Part shown: in pieces, positions 20,752 through 29,232 of the stretch | Numbering within the stretch: position 1 is the first letter of the stretch | Layout: each line of letters starts with the position of its first letter | Position numbers and translations under genes: made by a program | Source of the DNA: Microbacterium saperdae | GTDB taxonomy: Bacteria; Actinomycetota; Actinomycetes; Actinomycetales; Microbacteriaceae | NCBI RefSeq assembly: GCF_006716345.1 | Contig: NZ_VFOX01000001.1 | Location: forward strand, 186,001-250,000 | DNA: 64,000 nucleotides | Reading direction: 5' to 3' | The notes under the pieces: generated by a model | The model's input: only the letters and a program-made list of their open reading frames with translations | What the model was told of the DNA's origin: nothing | The model's database searches: none

Positions 20752-21755
20752 CCGATCCTTCGACAGGCTCAGGACCCCCCGAGGCGGACGGCGCGGAGGC
20801 CCCGGAGCTGACGCCCGGTGCTGTCACGATCATCGAGGGTGACAACCTCGCCGCGGCCGCGACCCTGCCCGCGGCATCCTTCACCCTGATCTACCTCGAT
20901 CCGCCGTTCAACACCGGCCGTACGCAGGAGCGGCAGGTGGTGACCGCGAGGCGGACCTCCACAACTCCGGAAGAACCGAGCGCTCCGGCGGCAGATGGGG
21001 CCGAAGCTGGCGAATCAGCCGCAGATCTCCGGAGTTCTGGAGCGGAAGCCGCCGAGACCGCCGGCGAGACCGAGATCCGCCACGGCTTCCACGGCCACGC
21101 CTATGAGCGGGTGCGGGGCATGCTGCGCACCTATGACGACCGCTTCGACGACTACGGCACCTTCCTGATGCCGAGGCTCGAGGAGGCCTGGCGGCTGCTC
21201 GCCGATGACGGCACCCTGTACCTGCACCTCGACTACCGCGAGGCCCACTACGCCAAGGTCATGCTCGACGCCGTGTTCGGTCGCGACTCGTTCCTCAACG
21301 AGCTCATCTGGGCCTACGACTACGGGGCGAAGTCGCGGCGGCGCTGGCCCACCAAGCACGACACGATCCTGGTCTACGTGAAGAACCCGCGGTCGTACGT
21401 CTTCAACGCCGATGAGATCGATCGGGAGCCGTACATGGCGCCGGGCCTCGTGACGCCCGAGAAGGCAGCGCGCGGCAAGCTGCCGACCGACGTCTGGTGG
21501 CACACGATCGTCCCCACCACGGGCCGCGAGAAGACCGGATACCCCACGCAGAAACCTGAGGGGATCCTCCGCCGGATCATCCGCGCCTCCAGTCGCCCCG
21601 GCGACCGCGTGCTCGACCTCTTCGCGGGAAGCGGCACGACCGGTGCGGTGGCGTCGGCCCTGGGCCGCGACGCGGTGCTGGTCGACGACAATCCGGAAGC
21701 GGTCCGCGTGATGCGCGAGCGGATGCCGCACGCCGAGGTGACGACGCTGGGCTGA
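20748..21755 (+). CDS. Orphan site-specific DNA methyltransferase (beta class, N6-adenine or N4-cytosine)
   Basis: A 335-residue SAM-dependent DNA methyltransferase. The catalytic motif DPPF (residues 51-54, IYLDPPFNTGR) precedes the SAM-binding FAGSGTTG (about 292-299), the beta-class order typical of type III Mod-like enzymes. TQKPEGILRRII is also typical. There is no restriction gene nearby, so it is probably an orphan modification or epigenetic enzyme. The GTG overlaps the lplA stop (GTGA). Two oddities: residues 2-9 (TDPSTGSG) come from a dispersed repeat, and residues about 66-109 form an Ala/Glu/Ser-rich linker whose DNA contains an 86-bp palindromic element. Confidence 0.88.
   Translation: MTDPSTGSGPPEADGAEAPELTPGAVTIIEGDNLAAAATLPAASFTLIYLDPPFNTGRTQERQVVTARRTSTTPEEPSAPAADGAEAGESAADLRSSGAEAAETAGETEIRHGFHGHAYERVRGMLRTYDDRFDDYGTFLMPRLEEAWRLLADDGTLYLHLDYREAHYAKVMLDAVFGRDSFLNELIWAYDYGAKSRRRWPTKHDTILVYVKNPRSYVFNADEIDREPYMAPGLVTPEKAARGKLPTDVWWHTIVPTTGREKTGYPTQKPEGILRRIIRASSRPGDRVLDLFAGSGTTGAVASALGRDAVLVDDNPEAVRVMRERMPHAEVTTLG
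20757..20776 (+). repeat. Dispersed repeat at the methyltransferase N-terminus
   Basis: CCTTCGACAGGCTCAGGACC, nearly identical to the element inside putA (5441-5458). Here it makes the N-terminal TDPSTGSG of the methyltransferase; read in reverse it encodes PEPVEGS. Small elements of this kind are dispersed through many high-GC genomes (from memory). Confidence 0.55.
20957..21042. repeat. 86-bp palindromic element inside the methyltransferase gene
   Basis: CTCCACAACTCCGGA (20957-20971) is the reverse complement, with one mismatch, of TCCGGAGTTCTGGAG (21028-21042). The 56 bp between are GC-rich. The element is a multiple that keeps the reading frame and encodes the low-complexity linker between catalytic and target-recognition regions. 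Confidence 0.5.
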
Positions 21756-23819: not shown

Positions 23820-25322
23820 ATGACCGATACTCCAACGGACTTCGTCGAGGTCGCCACCGCTGCGGGTCGGGTGCGCGGACGCTGGCGCCCGACGACCGGA
23901 GGACGGGGGAATCCGCGCTCCGCCGCATTCCTCGGCATCCCGTTCGCGGAGGCGCCGATCGACGAGCTGCGGTTCCAGGCCCCCGTTCCGAAGGCGCCGT
24001 GGGAGGGCGTGCGCGATGCGCTCGAGTTCGCCGCCACGGCGCAGCGGGGTGATCCCGGCGTCACGCTCATCCCCGAGCCGAGCGTCGAGGGCGAGTCGAC
24101 TCTGAACGTGAACGTCTTCACTCCGGCACCCTCGCGCCCTGGACCGTCGGATGCCGGTCTGCCGGTGCTCGTCTGGATCCACGGCGGCGGCTATTTCGCG
24201 GGCTCTCCGGCGAGCCCCTGGTACGACGGGCGCAACTTCAACCGCGACGGCGTCGTGACCGTGTCGATCTCGTACCGGCTCGGCTTCGACGGCTTCGGCT
24301 GGATCGCGGATGCGCCGTCGAACCGCGGCGTCCGGGACTGGCTGCTCGCGCTGGAGTGGGTGCAGCAGAACATCGCGGCGTTCGGGGGTGACCCGGCGCG
24401 GGTGACGATCGCCGGGCAGTCCGCAGGCGGAGGTGCGGTGCTGACCCTGCTGGGCATGCAGCAGGCGCAGCACCTGTTCCACGGCGTCTACGCGATCTCC
24501 GGTGCGCTCGCCGACGTCGCGTCCGCACGGGCAGAGGCGTTCGGGCGCGGGCTGGCGGCGACCGCCGGGGTCGAACCGACCGTGGCCGGCTTCTCCTCAC
24601 TGAGCGAGGACCGGGTGCTCGCTCTGCAGAAGAAGGCGACGCAGCTCGGGCCCTCGTCGATCGGGAGCGTGGTCGACGAGGGGCTGCCCCTGGGCCCGAC
24701 GATCGACGGAGATCTGCTGCCGCGGTCGACGCGCGAGTCGCTGGTCGCCGGGGTCGGTGCCGACAAGCCGTTGGTGCTCGGCGCGACGGATGACGAGTTC
24801 ACGATGGCCTTCTCGGATGCCGAGAAGGCGCTGCGCTGGGTGCCCCGAGGGCCGCTGCTGAAGAAGCTCGGACTTCCGAAGAGCGCGCGCCGTGAGTACC
24901 TCGCCGCCAATGCCGACGTCGCGGCGCTGAGCACGGCGCGCCTCGCCGGACGTCTGCTCACGGATCGGATGTTCCGCGCGGCGCTGCTGCGCGTGGTCGC
25001 CGACCGGGGCGCTGCGCCCACCTGGGTCTACCGTTTCTCGTGGCCGTCCGGGCACTTCGGCTTCGCCGAGCACTGCCTCGACGTGCCGTTCTTCTTCGAC
25101 TGCCTCGACGGTCCTGCGATGGAGCCGCTGGCCGGCCCGAACCCTCCGCAGTCGCTGGCGGATGAGGTGCACGGTGCGGCGGTCGCCTTCATCGTCGGGG
25201 GAGACCCCGGCTGGCCTCGCCACGAGGGTGTCGGGGGCGTCGCCCGGGTGTACGACACGCCCACGCGCGACGTCGCGGACGCCTACGCCTCCGTGCGCCC
25301 GCTGCTGGACGACGCGTCGTGA
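23820..25322 (+). CDS. Type B carboxylesterase
   Basis: About 500 residues, alpha/beta hydrolase of the carboxylesterase/lipase type B family. Visible: FLGIPFAEAPIDELRF near the N-terminus, oxyanion hole HGGG (121-124), nucleophile Ser201 in GQSAGGG, an acidic residue in GATDDEF and a likely His in the DEVHGAAVAF segment. No signal peptide, so cytosolic. The ATG at 23820 follows AGGAG; an in-frame ATG at 23790 overlaps the MFS stop and also has a possible ribosome site. With the MFS gene it forms a TetR-regulated operon for uptake and hydrolysis of an unidentified ester. Confidence 0.9.
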   Translation: MTDTPTDFVEVATAAGRVRGRWRPTTGGRGNPRSAAFLGIPFAEAPIDELRFQAPVPKAPWEGVRDALEFAATAQRGDPGVTLIPEPSVEGESTLNVNVFTPAPSRPGPSDAGLPVLVWIHGGGYFAGSPASPWYDGRNFNRDGVVTVSISYRLGFDGFGWIADAPSNRGVRDWLLALEWVQQNIAAFGGDPARVTIAGQSAGGGAVLTLLGMQQAQHLFHGVYAISGALADVASARAEAFGRGLAATAGVEPTVAGFSSLSEDRVLALQKKATQLGPSSIGSVVDEGLPLGPTIDGDLLPRSTRESLVAGVGADKPLVLGATDDEFTMAFSDAEKALRWVPRGPLLKKLGLPKSARREYLAANADVAALSTARLAGRLLTDRMFRAALLRVVADRGAAPTWVYRFSWPSGHFGFAEHCLDVPFFFDCLDGPAMEPLAGPNPPQSLADEVHGAAVAFIVGGDPGWPRHEGVGGVARVYDTPTRDVADAYASVRPLLDDAS

Positions 25323-25356
25323 CCGCGGCGAAGAGGTCGGGAGCGACACCCGACCG

Positions 25357-26046
25357 GTGGTCAGCGTGCGCCCGCGACGGATGCTCTGGACCGCGCTCGC
25401 ACTGCTGACCGTGTTCATCGTGCTCGCTCTCGGCGTGCTCGCCGCCCCCGACTCTCCATGGACGCAAGGGCTCGATGATGCGTGGCGCCGCGCGGTCGGG
25501 GTCGGACCGGAGTCCTGGCTGCCCGGCACGGCGGTCGCGCAGATGTTCCAGCACCTCGGTCAGCTGCCGGGCGCGGTGCTGATGTTCCTCGTGTTGCCGC
25601 TCACGCTCGTCGTGCTGGGGCGGTGGCGGTCGGCGCTGTTCGTGATCGCGGTGCAGCTGGCGGGCCCCGGTCTGCTGTCGCAGCTGACGAAGAACCTCAT
25701 CGATCGGCCTCGGCCCGCGGCGGATGCGGGTCTGTTCGGCCCGCTCGTGCAGGTCGACCACGGCTCGTTCCCCTCGGGGCACTCGGTCAGCATGGCGGCG
25801 CTCATCATCACGGTGCTCGCGCTGATCCCGGCATCCGCGGTGTGGGCGCGACGCGCGTGGATCGTGCTCGGGGTGCTGCTCGCCGTCGGCATGGTCTGGC
25901 AGCGCACCCTGATCAACGCGCACTGGTTCAGCGACACCTGTGCCGGGCTGATCGGCGGGACCGCCGTCGCCCTGCTGCTGTGGTGGGCGTTCCTGCCGTG
26001 GCTGCGGTGCGATCAGGCGCGGCGGGTGTGGTTCCTGCGGCGATGA
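25357..26046 (+). CDS. PAP2-family membrane phosphatase
   Basis: About 229 residues with five or six membrane helices. The tripartite acid phosphatase signature is present: KNLIDRPRP, then PSGH in FPSGHSVSM, then RTLINAHWFSD. Such proteins dephosphorylate lipid phosphates or undecaprenyl pyrophosphate outside the membrane. The start is uncertain between the GTGs at 25357 and 25366 and the ATG at 25381. It follows the esterase gene by 34 bp and may belong to its transcript. The hairpin-flanked DUF559 cassette begins two bases after its stop codon. Confidence 0.88.
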   Translation: MVSVRPRRMLWTALALLTVFIVLALGVLAAPDSPWTQGLDDAWRRAVGVGPESWLPGTAVAQMFQHLGQLPGAVLMFLVLPLTLVVLGRWRSALFVIAVQLAGPGLLSQLTKNLIDRPRPAADAGLFGPLVQVDHGSFPSGHSVSMAALIITVLALIPASAVWARRAWIVLGVLLAVGMVWQRTLINAHWFSDTCAGLIGGTAVALLLWWAFLPWLRCDQARRVWFLRR

Positions 26047-26047
26047 G

Positions 26048-26061
26048 CATGCCTGCGCGGG
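26048..26061 (+). repeat. 14-bp direct repeat, left
   Basis: CATGCCTGCGCGGG, identical to 27446-27459, begins two bases after the PAP2 stop codon and ends just outside the first hairpin arm. It could be a target-site duplication or recombination site. Confidence 0.6.
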
Positions 26062-26064
26062 GAG

Positions 26065-26113
26065 TTGGCACCTCTGGTCGCTCTGAGCGCGTTTCAGCGA
26101 CGACGGGTGCCAA
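26065..26113. repeat. Hairpin A of upstream pair
   Basis: TTGGCACC (26065-26072) pairs with GGTGCCAA (26106-26113), and inside that GTCGCT pairs with AGCGAC. The outer arm motif GTTGGCACC recurs in the other three hairpins of the cassette. Confidence 0.7.
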
Positions 26114-26136
26114 TCAGTTCGCGGGTTGAGGTCTGC

Positions 26137-26189
26137 AGTTGGCACCTGTTGCCGCATCAGCACTCTGAGAGCGACGGCAGGTGCCAACT
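26137..26189. repeat. Hairpin B of upstream pair
   Basis: AGTTGGCACCTG (26137-26148) and CAGGTGCCAACT (26178-26189) are perfect 12-bp inverted repeats. The start is 74 bp from that of hairpin A, the same phase as in the downstream pair (75 bp). Confidence 0.75.
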
Positions 26190-26235
26190 CCGCCCGGTGG
26201 GCATTGCTTCTGCACAGGACGATGTGGAGAAGCAT

Positions 26236-26271
26236 CGTGCACGGATGCCGTGATCGCGGCATGCGTGCACG
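26236..26271. promoter_or_regulatory. Inverted repeat upstream of the AbiEi/DUF559 gene
   Basis: CGTGCACGGATGCCG (26236-26250) pairs with 26257-26271 at 14 of 15 positions around a six-base loop. It lies 25 bp before the start codon. AbiEi-type N-terminal domains bind inverted repeats at their own promoters, so this is a candidate autoregulatory operator. Confidence 0.5.
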
Positions 26272-26295
26272 ACCATGTGACCGCAGGATCGAGCG

Positions 26296-27276
26296 ATGTC
26301 CCGTCCGCCTCGTGCACTCCCGCCCAGCCTCGGCACCGTTTTCACTCCCGAGCAGGCGAGGGCGGCGGGGGTGACGGCCCGGCGACTGCGCGCGCGCGAT
26401 CTCGATCACGTCCACCGTGGGCTGCTCGTGATCTCGGCGCCCGATGAAGCAGAGTTCGAAGACGGTGAGCCTTTCGCACGTGATCGCGCGATGCGCACAC
26501 GGATGCTGCGGCGTGCGCAGTGGTATGACCGGGTGATGGTGGCCCATGCGTTCTTCGTCGGCCGCACGGCCGCGGGCATCTGGCGGCTGCCTGTCGAGTG
26601 TGATGGCGAACTGGAGGTCGGTGTTCTTCCGCCTCATCGAGCGCCTCGCCGTCGTGGCATATCCGGTCGTCAGATTGCGAGTCATCTCGTGTCGGTCTGC
26701 GAGCGCGATGGGCTTCGGGTCGCTGGTCCCGCATCGACGTGGGCCCTGTTGGCCGAAGACCTCTCGGTGCGCGAACTCATCGTGGTGGGTGACGCCGCCG
26801 TTCACGTCCCCCGGGACGAGTTCGCGCGTCGTCGTCCGGAGCAGGCGCTGGCCACCGTGGAACAGCTGCGGGCGGCCGTCGCCGCCGGCTCTCGTCGGGG
26901 AGTGGAGAAGCTGCGTGCGGCGGTCGAGCGAGTGTGCACTGCGAGCGCGTCACCTCTGGAGACCGACTTTCGACTGGATGCCGAAGAAGCGGGTCTCCCC
27001 GCTCCGACGCTCGACGCGGAGATCCGTGACCGACGGGGCAGACTGCTCGGCGTGACCGAGCTCGCCTACCTGGAGTTCGCGGTGCTGGTCGAGATCGAGG
27101 GTGATCATCACCGCACTTCCCGCCGGCAGTGGAACCGCGACATCGAGAAATACGCCGCCTATGTCGCGGAAGGATTCGAAGTCGTCCGACTCACCTCGGC
27201 GCACATCCGGAGCGCCGACGCCGTCGGCATCAGCATGGTGCGCGACGCGCTCATCCGCCATGGCTGGCGCCCCTGA
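26296..27276 (+). CDS. AbiEi-type antitoxin / DUF559 (Vsr-like nuclease fold) fusion protein
   Basis: A 326-residue protein with an N-terminal winged-helix segment of the AbiEi antitoxin type (about residues 17-48: TPEQARAAGVTARRLRARDL, HRGLLV). The C-terminal DUF559 domain (about 225-320) has a PD-(D/E)XK-like core: conserved Glu, VLVEIEGDHHR, RQWNRDIEKY and a final FEVVRLTSAHI. The usual Asp before the first core strand appears replaced (TELAYLEF), so nuclease activity is uncertain. No separate toxin gene follows. Such fusions are numerous in actinobacterial genomes but their role is unclear. It lies alone between paired hairpins and direct repeats. AGGA precedes the ATG. Confidence 0.75.
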   Translation: MSRPPRALPPSLGTVFTPEQARAAGVTARRLRARDLDHVHRGLLVISAPDEAEFEDGEPFARDRAMRTRMLRRAQWYDRVMVAHAFFVGRTAAGIWRLPVECDGELEVGVLPPHRAPRRRGISGRQIASHLVSVCERDGLRVAGPASTWALLAEDLSVRELIVVGDAAVHVPRDEFARRRPEQALATVEQLRAAVAAGSRRGVEKLRAAVERVCTASASPLETDFRLDAEEAGLPAPTLDAEIRDRRGRLLGVTELAYLEFAVLVEIEGDHHRTSRRQWNRDIEKYAAYVAEGFEVVRLTSAHIRSADAVGISMVRDALIRHGWRP

Positions 27277-27316
27277 CCTCTTGCCTCTTGCGCTTGCCGC
27301 CTGTGTGGCGCGCACG

Positions 27317-27371
27317 GAGTTGGCACCTCGCGTCGCTTTGGCGATGCTTACGCGACGAGAGGCGTCAACTT
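27317..27371. repeat. Hairpin C of downstream pair
   Basis: The left arm 27317-27336 (GAGTTGGCACCTCGCGTCGC) matches the reverse complement of 27352-27371 at 16 of 20 positions. It is the counterpart of hairpin A and in the same orientation. Confidence 0.65.
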
Positions 27372-27391
27372 CTTCTGGCGGCGGCGGATGC

Positions 27392-27444
27392 AGTTGGCAC
27401 GTGGTGTCGGCATCGGCACGGTAGAACGGCGAGAGGTGTCAACT
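27392..27444. repeat. Hairpin D of downstream pair
   Basis: AGTTGGCAC (27392-27400) pairs with GTGTCAACT (27436-27444), one mismatch; it is the counterpart of hairpin B. The direct repeat CATGCCTGCGCGGG begins two bases later. Confidence 0.6.
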
Positions 27445-27445
27445 T

Positions 27446-27459
27446 CATGCCTGCGCGGG
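27446..27459 (+). repeat. 14-bp direct repeat, right
   Basis: CATGCCTGCGCGGG, exact copy of 26048-26061, 1,398 bp apart. It lies immediately outside hairpin D and 25 bp from the end of the cupin gene. Confidence 0.6.
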
Positions 27460-27484: not shown

Positions 27485-27832
27485 TCAGGCGATGTAGACC
27501 TTGCGCAGCGTCTCGGTGACGGTCCAGGTGGTGCGCTGTCCCTCGAGCAGGCACACCACCGAACCGGGCCCCACCGCGAGGTCGGGTAGCGCAGGGTCGT
27601 CGAAGGCGATCGTGGCGTGCCCGGAGAGCACGACGAACACCTCGTCGACCTCGGTGTCGGTGGCGCTGCCCGGCGTCATCTCCCAGATGCCGATCTCGAC
27701 GCCACCCATTTCGGTGAGTGCATGAACGGCGGTCGTCGGAGAACCCGCGAGCACCTCCGCGGCCGGCAGGGGTTCATGCGCGAGGGGGAGAGCCACGGCG
27801 TCCACGCCGGTCCCCGCGGCGAGACCGCTCAC
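27485..27832 (-). CDS. Cupin-domain protein
   Basis: A 115-residue single-domain cupin. Residues about 45-100 form the barrel: GVEIGIWEMTPGSATDTEVDEVFVVLSGHATIAF and a second motif around LAVGPGSVVCLLEGQRTTWTVTETLRKVYI. The metal-binding His of the first motif is replaced (TDTEVDE), so metal binding is doubtful. It resembles DUF861-type cupins encoded beside amine oxidases. The GTG start overlaps the stop of the FAD oxidoreductase gene (GTGA), so it is the downstream member of that operon. Role unknown. Confidence 0.8.
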   Translation of the reverse strand: MSGLAAGTGVDAVALPLAHEPLPAAEVLAGSPTTAVHALTEMGGVEIGIWEMTPGSATDTEVDEVFVVLSGHATIAFDDPALPDLAVGPGSVVCLLEGQRTTWTVTETLRKVYIA

Positions 27833-29232
27833 GAGTCGAAGCCCATGCCGAGCGCATCGAGCGTCTTGAGGAAGAGGTTGCGCTTGCCGTCGCGGTGGTC
27901 GGCCTGGTTCATGGCCGCGCGCACCAGGTTGATGCCGATCGCGGCGGCGGGCTCCGGTGGGAACGGCACGGGCTTCTCCCGCACCATCTTCAGCGCGGTG
28001 CGCTCGGTCTCCTCGCCCGCGAGCTTGTCGAGCATGACGTCGGCGGCGAACCGCGCCGCGCCGACACCGAGTCCGGTGAATCCGGTCGCATAGGCCACGC
28101 GCCCCTTGCGGGCGGTGCCGAAGAAGGCGCAGAACCGGCTGGACGAGTCGATCGCACCGGCCCAGCGGTGCGTGAAGGAGAGCCCCGCGAGCTGCGGGAA
28201 CGTCGTGAAGAAGTGCGAGGCGAGGCGCCGGTGGCTCTCCATGCGGTCCTCGTACTCCGGGCGCACCTTGCCGCCGTAGTGGTAGATCGCGTCGTAGCCG
28301 CCGAACAGGATGCGGTTGTCGGCGGTGAGGCGGTAGTAGTGGAACTGGTTGGCGCTGTCCGCGAGGCCCTGACGGTTCGACCAGCCGATCGACGCGAGCT
28401 GTGCGTCCGAGAGCGGCTCGGTCATCAGCACGTAGTCGTACACGGGGACGGTCATCAGGCGGTTGCGCTTGAGGAGCGAGGGGAAGACGTTGGTGCCGAG
28501 CGCCACGGCATCCGCTGTCACGCGTCCGCCATCCGTGATCAGCGTGATCGCCGAGGAGCCGTCCCCTTCGATGCCGCGCACGAGTGTGCGCTCGTGGATC
28601 TCGACGCCCAGGTCGGTGGCGACGCGGGCGAGCTCGAGGCCCAGCTTGGCGGGGTGCACCATCGCGCACCCCTCGCGGTCCCAGGAGCCGGCGAGGAAGG
28701 TCTCGGAATGCACCTCGGCCTGCACGGCATCCCTGTCGAGGAAGTCGGCCTCCCCGCGGTACCACTCGACCTGATGCGGCTCGACCGCGACCGCCATCTG
28801 GCCGGTGCGCTCGAAGTCGGTGTCCATGCCGTAGCGCGCGATGGTCTGTGCGATGCCGTCGAGGTTCTCGAGGCCCATCTCCTCGAGTCGGTCGATCTCC
28901 TCGGGCCAGCGGTTCACACCGTTCTCATGCCCGTGCGTGAGGCTCGCCTCGCAGAACCCGCCGTTGCGCCCGGACGCGGCCCACGCCACACGTGACGCCT
29001 CGAGCAGCACGACCCGTCGTTCGGGATCGCGCTCCTTGGCGCGGATCGCGGTCCACAGACCGGTGTAGCCGCCACCGACGATCACGAGGTCGGCGTGCAC
29101 GGAGCCCCGGAGCGGCGGATGTGCCGGTCGCTCGACGTCATCGAGCCAGAACACCCCGAAGGCCGTGGAGCGCAGGGAGTCGTCGATGACGGACTGCGGC
29201 GGCTGCTGACGCTCGAAGACGGTGGTTCCCAT
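27829..29232 (-). CDS. FAD-dependent oxidoreductase, PuuB-like (gamma-glutamylputrescine oxidase type)
   Basis: A 467-residue DAO-family flavoenzyme. The ADP-binding Rossmann motif is VIVGGGYTGLWTAI (about residues 49-62) with the acidic end of strand 2 in VVLLEAS; AASGRNGGF is the typical isoalloxazine-contact segment. C-terminal GRVAYATGFTGLGVGAARFAAD is the second FAD region. Oxidases of this group act on gamma-glutamylputrescine or related amines, producing aldehyde, ammonia and peroxide. It lies downstream of an Lrp regulator and divergent from an aldehyde dehydrogenase, which fits putrescine degradation, but no glutamylputrescine synthetase is in the window. GGAG precedes the ATG. Confidence 0.85.
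   Translation of the reverse strand: MGTTVFERQQPPQSVIDDSLRSTAFGVFWLDDVERPAHPPLRGSVHADLVIVGGGYTGLWTAIRAKERDPERRVVLLEASRVAWAASGRNGGFCEASLTHGHENGVNRWPEEIDRLEEMGLENLDGIAQTIARYGMDTDFERTGQMAVAVEPHQVEWYRGEADFLDRDAVQAEVHSETFLAGSWDREGCAMVHPAKLGLELARVATDLGVEIHERTLVRGIEGDGSSAITLITDGGRVTADAVALGTNVFPSLLKRNRLMTVPVYDYVLMTEPLSDAQLASIGWSNRQGLADSANQFHYYRLTADNRILFGGYDAIYHYGGKVRPEYEDRMESHRRLASHFFTTFPQLAGLSFTHRWAGAIDSSSRFCAFFGTARKGRVAYATGFTGLGVGAARFAADVMLDKLAGEETERTALKMVREKPVPFPPEPAAAIGINLVRAAMNQADHRDGKRNLFLKTLDALGMGFDS

Follow-up and report, generated by a model that had tools for sequence, protein, structure and literature searches.

We analysed a window of 64,000 nucleotides from Microbacterium saperdae (contig NZ_VFOX01000001.1; the whole genome comprises 4.3 Mb in two contigs), in which a gene for a putative nuclease of the DUF559/Vsr type is enclosed by palindromes. 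A single open reading frame (26296–27276, plus strand) has a PAP2 gene on its left and a convergent Cupin_3 gene on its right, and is framed by two pairs of 53-bp palindromes: H1 (26063–26115) and H2 (26137–26189) on the left, H3 (27318–27370) and H4 (27392–27444) on the right, all on the plus strand. Both neighbours are outside the system and have uncertain start codons. The left one (25162–26046, plus strand) matches PF01569 (E 9e-20), and the right one (27485–27841, minus strand), which adjoins the same site in relatives, matches PF05899 (E 2e-13). A first-pass annotation of this DNA had described a gene enclosed by paired hairpins and set between two unrelated genes, and we confirmed both points. 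The 9-mer AGTTGGCAC occurs five times in the window, always inside the block (shuffle mean 0.22), and a covariance model built from 15 sequences, H1–H4 among them, matched only H1–H4 in the window at E ≤ 1. The spacing within the two pairs measures 74 and 74 bp, where the annotation gave 74 and 75 bp. The arms read AGTTGGCACCT-N31-AGGTGYCAACT, and the palindrome ends read AGTTGGC...GCCAACT. Folding as single-stranded DNA set H2, the best preserved copy, far above its shuffles (z −6.5) and H1 and H3 moderately above theirs (−2.9 and −3.1); H4 did not exceed its shuffles (−0.6), yet its outer arms pair. H1, H3 and H4 score higher with the covariance model on the plus strand and H2 slightly higher on the minus strand; by these scores no inverted arrangement of the flanking copies is seen in the block. 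The aligned window-family palindromes share no GTAG or CGTC tag. One base outside the outermost palindromes stands an exact 14-bp direct repeat, CATGCCTGCGCGGG (26048–26061 and 27446–27459, plus strand). In the rest of the window, 39,905 pairs of 40-bp stretches separated by 1.3–1.5 kb had no word longer than 13 bp in common (13 bp was reached seven times), so the repeat, which had been annotated at 26048 and 27446, is unlikely to be due to chance. An earlier control gave 14-bp matches, possibly from the block itself, which stayed in that control.

The gene encodes a protein of 326 amino acids. In its structure model, with a predicted local distance difference test (pLDDT) score of 94.3, residues 4–214 (26305–26937, plus strand) match an AbiEi antitoxin-like fold. 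The PADLOC match of the gene to AbiEi is weak. Residues 219–324 (26950–27267, plus strand) match a Vsr-like homing-nuclease domain. This fold list is a re-examination of Foldseek's own matches and leaves room for further folds. The Pfam match to MTES_1575/DUF559 is also weak: the protein scores under the DUF559 cut-off, which is passed by three of six relatives (L028, L015, L161). The nuclease part combines the Vsr-type fold with invariant acidic and His residues, and these residues probably form a conserved active site. The family is large and annotated just as hypothetical or DUF559 proteins. A family search of the neighbours found no AbiEii nucleotidyltransferase toxin gene adjoining the window gene. 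The gene does not lie in an intron, an intein or a coding target; it is intergenic, and both neighbours have complete-looking domains. On plasmids the window protein had three weak matches, in Arthrobacter records, and L028 had one match among phage records.

To see how common this arrangement is, we used 80 of 87 fetched homologue loci, taken from genus, order and named genomes. Left out were five duplicate genes (L009, L013, L061, L141, L167), a truncated gene (L162) and L066, a contig labelled Stenotrophomonas maltophilia that carries an actinobacterial homologue and is probably contamination. A palindrome was called strong when its gapless arm score was at least 12 within 300 bp of the gene. 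Strong palindromes were found upstream of 45/80 homologues, downstream of 42/77, on both sides of 30/77 and on at least one side of 56/77, the 77 being the homologues for which both flanks were present. Palindromes thus flank DUF559 genes well beyond this locus, a point that the first-pass annotation had suggested checking with its own hairpin sequences. Elsewhere in the same loci, 7 of 526 tiles held a strong palindrome, and none of 152 shuffled flanks did. Because palindromes are richer in intergenic than in coding DNA, intergenic gaps are the fairer control; here a strong palindrome was present in 7 of 46 other gaps and on both sides of 0 of 46 other genes (18 from homologue loci and 28 from the window, called with a crude GC-frame gene caller).

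The palindrome sequence varies from gene to gene, yet agrees on the two sides of one gene. The same arms (score at least 10) flanked 43 of 76 genes, compared with 10 of 4,498 pairings of genes less than 45% identical and none of the 46 control genes. Palindrome similarity also follows protein identity (Mantel r 0.541, reached in 0 of 2,000 permutations, 66 genes). L156, more than 95% identical to another sequence, was dropped from both tests. In six compared genomes, an incomplete census, two homologues are accompanied by two different palindromes: G007 (L018 with TGACTTCGGCC, L147 with GAGTGTCC), G032 (L015, L161), G018 (L012, L152), G021 (L021, L239), G087 (L104, L257) and G111 (L259, L291). 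Short of a binding assay, this is the strongest sign of protein–palindrome specificity. At the level of sequence comparison, the association of gene and palindrome and its specificity can be considered established. The first-pass annotation had offered the Vsr-like nuclease as cargo or as mover; a tie between nuclease and palindromes is upheld by the shared arms and the Mantel correlation, and plain cargo is not, since palindrome sequence tracks the protein.

These data bear on two other explanations. In one, the palindromes are bidirectional transcription terminators that stand by chance around short isolated genes; many of them do lie between convergent genes, and ordinary intergenic gaps also hold a strong palindrome in 7 of 46 cases. 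But terminators are not expected to be alike on the two sides of a gene (43/76 against 0/46 control genes) or to follow protein relationships, and no T run follows the stem in the seven aligned copies of the window family. We therefore consider this explanation very improbable. In the other, a RAYT or an IS200/IS605 transposase drives the palindromes, with the DUF559 gene along as a passenger. Units of repetitive extragenic palindromic (REP) sequences and RAYTs look alike in this respect, with a flanked gene, co-evolution and a copy-number correlation (PMC2817692). However, palindrome identity follows the DUF559 protein, and a search of the window genome for Y1_Tnp (PF01797), which was positive in 5 of 14 control genomes and did not extend to other genomes, found none. 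A separate driving enzyme is scarcely credible on this evidence.

In a class survey that scored no more than 14 candidates in each genome, 106 of 158 genomes had a homologue match at E ≤ 1e-15. Twenty-seven of 29 class loci (L170–L198) were taken, because L170 and L173 repeat L029 and L030. A palindrome was present on at least one side in 24/26 loci that had both flanks, compared with 1/104 control tiles, and the two sides matched in 16/26, compared with 39/676 cross pairings, a figure raised because GATCATG-like arms are common to several genomes. Arms of the types GATCATGG, GATCATGC or GATCATCG stand beside homologues in several other actinomycete families (L177–L180, L183–L187, L189).

We also assessed whether the palindromes occur away from the gene. 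The pattern AGTTGGCRC...GYGYCAACT was present in 10 of 149 genus genomes and formed tandem arrays of 73–74 bp in G013. A DUF559 homologue was found at 6 of 19 loci with this pattern (G000, G148, G018) and not at the other 13. Hairpins scattered without relation to DUF559 genes had been named in the first-pass annotation as speaking against its interpretation; the 13 loci without an adjoining gene are indeed scattered, as dispersed repeats should be. In 33 of 149 genomes the window-family covariance model had matches. In G000 it gave 31 strand matches, with 13 distinct places among the matches listed and pairs 70–77 bp apart. Genomes with a gene at least 60% identical to that of the window had 31 (G000), 22 (G148), 38 (G098), 12 (G111) and 16 (G087) strand matches. 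A second pattern, GAGTGTCC...GGACACT, was present in 31 of 149 genomes and absent from 118, with up to 74 copies per genome, and the reversed pattern was near zero. Of 15 genomes with a cognate gene scoring 330 bits or more, taken as close, 14 had at least 10 GAGTGTCC copies, compared with 2 of the other 33; these 48 genomes were picked after the copy count, 22 with copies and 26 without. One of the two copy-rich genomes without a close gene, G076, has a truncated gene of the GAGTGTCC clade between such palindromes. The REP-like character proposed in the first-pass annotation is thus supported by the dispersal of the palindromes.

The location of the dispersed copies bears on the explanation that the palindromes are only operators. 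An AbiEi-like repressor-nuclease would then regulate itself through the upstream palindrome, the downstream and scattered copies would be its regulon, and there would be no mobility. The AbiEi fold match of the head fits this, as does the repression by AbiEi of its own promoter via a 49-bp inverted repeat of similar geometry (PMC3985639). However, palindromes are downstream (42/77) about as often as upstream (45/80). From 30 fetched GAGTGTCC loci, 7 with a different palindrome and 2 at a DUF559 gene were set aside. Of the remaining 21 dispersed sites, 14 were between called genes: 7 in convergent gaps, in which an operator could not serve a promoter, 6 in tandem gaps and 1 in a divergent gap. 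Six sites overlapped a called gene and 1 was at an edge. Random positions overlapped a gene in 337 of 420 cases, and with the crude gene caller the 6 overlapping sites may reflect wrong starts. Tandem arrays and a species-specific turnover at one site are also unexpected of operators. We regard a purely operator role as unlikely, although less so than the other alternatives.

It turned out that many of the genes keep their place. In four loci, the window, L100 (67% identical), L056 and L057, the gene stands between an esterase gene (or esterase and PAP2 genes) and the cupin gene; L104 and L058 have it next to the cupin gene. In the window the wider neighbours are COesterase and PAP2 genes on the left, and Cupin_3, a DAO oxidoreductase and an AsnC/Lrp regulator on the right. 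The gap is occupied in species whose genes are 60–67% identical. Twelve loci have other flanks in common (L007, L008, L010, L011, L012, L014, L059–L061, L063, L065, L079; L010 and L061 are one gene). The first-pass annotation had held that orthologous genes at the same place with diverged repeats would contradict it: genes of the same clade do occupy the same place in several species, which fits one half of this condition, but simple divergence of the repeats is not what is seen, for their two sides agree. Gene-less sites were found with the same esterase–cupin neighbours (L086, L087, L092) or esterase–PAP2–cupin neighbours (L090), as the annotation had suggested looking for. We did not accept these spacers as clean empty sites, because they are apparently not nucleotide-clean. 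G111 carries a 67% identical gene at a distance of about 11 kb from the cupin gene, and a palindrome pair remains beside the cupin gene, whose other neighbour is an ABC-transporter-like gene (a label given by sequence reading, without a family search), not an esterase gene.

Turnover was also found at another site, where G000 carries a lone window-type palindrome (L004). We compared 45 regions selected from 84 matching genomes, in nearly every case on the ground that the matches to the two flanks were close together; in three of them (G138, G134, G087) the left gene was missed by the script. Thirteen of the 45 carry a homologue, with strong palindromes of several families on both sides in 10 and on one side in 3. 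G002 has a lone TTCCGGTCGCAG palindrome here, and the same family brackets a gene in G139, G100 and G111. Other palindromes are present in G005, G029 and G140, where the G140 flanks are 90% and 93% identical, and no strong palindrome is present in the 20–42 bp gaps of G083, G034 and G106. By these comparisons many genes are inherited in place and some are lost, and the palindromes differ between species. Such a picture is the same as that of RAYTs and REPs (PMC2817692, PMC3116915).

The gene with its flanking palindromes could also be an ordinary mobile cassette, a composite element that jumps as a unit, with the 14-bp repeat as its target duplication. The near-flush position of this repeat, the presence and absence of the gene at fixed sites and the displaced gene of G111 would fit. 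In addition, L006 (1487–1584, G000:C2) has a 13-bp repeat, GGTGGATCGATGG, before each of its two window-type palindromes. But in 41 genes with matching sides, direct repeats beyond the outermost matching palindromes never exceed 8 bp, although degraded outer palindromes can be overlooked. The longest, 8 bp, is a C-rich stretch of L151, and pairings with other genes reach 8 bp in 81 of 1,640 cases. Outside the best palindrome of 41 genes the longest shared word was 7 bp. The script may overlook other repeats, because it missed the window's own, H4 scoring too low. Dispersed GAGTGTCC copies have at most 9 bp in common across their ends. We therefore rejected target-site duplication as a general feature, and within the reservations on the script, and with the window and L006 repeats as exceptions, this argues against a classical cut-and-paste transposase. 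These two repeats are perhaps copied array spacers. The cassette explanation is further weakened by the same gap being occupied in species with 60–67% identical genes, by empty sites that are not clean and by the two homologues of the window genome, which are 53% identical to each other and so not recent duplicates. We consider it improbable. The first-pass annotation is thus upheld in part, but our data do not support insertion of a cassette that duplicated a 14-bp target.

Taken together, the association, the same sequence on both sides of a gene, the co-variation with the protein, the correlation of dispersal with the gene in one family and the turnover at fixed sites all point to one reading of the block. 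We assign a probability of about two in three to its being a member of a REP-like nuclease–palindrome partnership that is widespread in Actinomycetes and run by a nuclease unrelated to RAYT. In Streptococcus agalactiae, AbiEi binds two 11-bp arms separated by 27 bp, TGTTGCTTTTA-N27-TAAAAGCAACA, and represses its own operon through the 49-bp inverted repeat that contains them (PMC3985639). This geometry is close to AGTTGGCACCT-N31-AGGTGYCAACT, and for this reason we propose arm recognition by the head of a dimer. In such a mechanism palindromes of about 50–66 bp, with outer arms of about 8 bp or more, would be the cognate sites of the nuclease; further copies of them lie mainly between genes, singly, in tandem pairs 70–85 bp apart or in arrays. 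The protein would dimerise, and its AbiEi-type winged-helix head would bind both arms, at the upstream palindrome also giving autoregulation. The Vsr-like domain would nick or cut at or near the arms, and an extruded or single-stranded hairpin might be its substrate. Palindromes could then be copied, deleted or homogenised by repair or replication, and the gene between them sometimes captured or lost; copying by repair, single-strand events at the fork or gene conversion that keeps the flanks alike may follow the cut. The enzyme would in this way be the cause of the dispersal.

Several points weigh against this reading. The main doubt is that all the evidence is comparative, and that the copy-number test for GAGTGTCC is not corrected for phylogeny. 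Twenty-one of 77 homologues, including the paralogue L003 of the window genome, have no strong palindrome on either side. G005 and G014 have 13 and 8 strand matches of the window family, and the best homologues found in them are only 38% and 34% identical; 22, 14, 12 and 12 matches were found in G135, G154, G131 and G140, genomes outside the gene search. G096 has 10 GAGTGTCC copies and no gene of that clade, and G073 has a close gene and no copy of the pattern, its palindromes starting with GAGAGTCC or GAAAGTCC. In 47 GAGTGTCC copies, with positions 1–8 fixed by the search pattern and species structure left in, covariation is clear at positions 12, 16 and 18–20 and not seen at 11, 14 and 15. 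As a choice between a single-strand hairpin and duplex half-sites this result is mixed, and 7 TTCCGGTCGC copies were uninformative. Finally, because many genes keep their position, the gene itself is no active jumper, and no movement of gene or palindromes was observed in our comparisons.

Known systems differ from the block in their parts. Vsr, DUF559 and I-Bth0305I-type (EDxHD) nucleases share the Vsr-type fold and the conserved acidic/His site; in contrast to them, the gene here is intergenic, not in an intron or intein, has an AbiEi-like head and is flanked by palindromes. Integron cassettes also carry one gene between imperfect palindromes. The attC core-site consensus is RYYYAAC...GTTRRRY, and the ends found here, AGTTGGC...GCCAACT, have the opposite order; the searches did not cover an integrase. 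The type IV toxin–antitoxin AbiE resembles the block in the AbiEi-like fold match of residues 4–214 and in a long palindromic operator with 11-bp arms over 49 bp (PMC3985639), but the block has no adjoining nucleotidyltransferase toxin gene, its nuclease is fused, and its palindromes are also downstream and dispersed. The closest likeness is to REP/RAYT systems (REPtrons, REPINs), in which, according to PMC2817692, PMC3116915 and PMC3733652, extragenic palindromes with dispersed copies flank a gene and co-evolve with it in type, cognate copies are numerous where the gene is present, orthologous genes stay in place, and copies form tandem arrays and are often between convergent genes. The copy-number link of a REPtron holds for the GAGTGTCC family; on partial data it is looser for the window family. 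The enzyme here is an AbiEi–Vsr-like fusion instead of a Y1 (HUH) tyrosine transposase, the palindromes are 50–66 bp and not 20–40 bp, there is no conserved GTAG or CGTC tag, and the flanking copies are not inverted. IS200/IS605 elements differ by their TnpA Y1 transposase, absent from the window genome. Thus the block is not an AbiE system, an integron cassette or a homing intron; it appears to work like REP/RAYT and departs from it in enzyme class, palindrome size and tag.

We regard the parts of the system as new, although its logic follows a known analogue. In the open-access literature searched, a scope that mostly excludes subscription papers, 14 papers name DUF559, and no link between it and palindromes was found in their titles and abstract openings. 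To our knowledge, RAYT is the known dedicated enzyme of REP-like palindromes. We are more tentative, at somewhat short of even odds, about a broader claim: that this is a second, independently evolved REP-type mobile system, in which the operator-binding head of an antitoxin, joined to a Vsr-like homing nuclease, makes its operator palindrome spread, and that such nucleases have produced much of the intergenic palindrome content of actinobacteria. If true, a non-homologous enzyme with this genetic signature would suggest a repeated origin of extragenic palindromes, each time with dedicated nucleases; many intergenic repeats that lack an explanation in actinobacteria would have a cause, and a large family of hypothetical or DUF559 proteins would have a role. 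It would also provide diverse protein/palindrome pairs whose specificity is readable from sequence and directly testable.

Several minor observations were made in the loci. In L040 (1501–2260, G148:C1) a GNAT acetyltransferase gene lies between window-type palindromes, with arms and spacers repeated on both sides, as if the palindromes had captured another gene. In L272 (G098:C9:45007–55643) a DUF559 gene with two palindromes is followed, after about 8.5 kb with two ABC permease genes, an FAD oxidoreductase gene and others, by a third palindrome of the same family. About nine tandem half-arm repeats of 24–25 bp stand beside one palindrome of L104 (1243–1490, G087:C46) and an AGCC microsatellite (1–70) by the other, and C or G runs stand beside palindromes in L145 and L151. 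The half-arm repeats and the C or G runs are slippage-like scars that fit local breakage, without proving it. Homologues with one in-frame stop, possible pseudogenes, were seen in G058, G059, G060, G065, G066, G072, G079 and G085. A different palindrome starting with GAGTGTCCTCTC, 56–57 bp in four printed copies, occurs once or twice per genome in seven low-count genomes (L111, L116, L118, L119, L127, L128, L131) and looks unrelated to the dispersed GAGTGTCC family. The palindrome CTTCGACAGGCTCAG...CTGAGCCTGTCGAAG, for which no cognate DUF559 gene was seen among the loci read, occurs in L234/L208 (G029) and L091. G029 has it in repeated form at the site equivalent to L004, and a single arm is present at position 20759 of the window.

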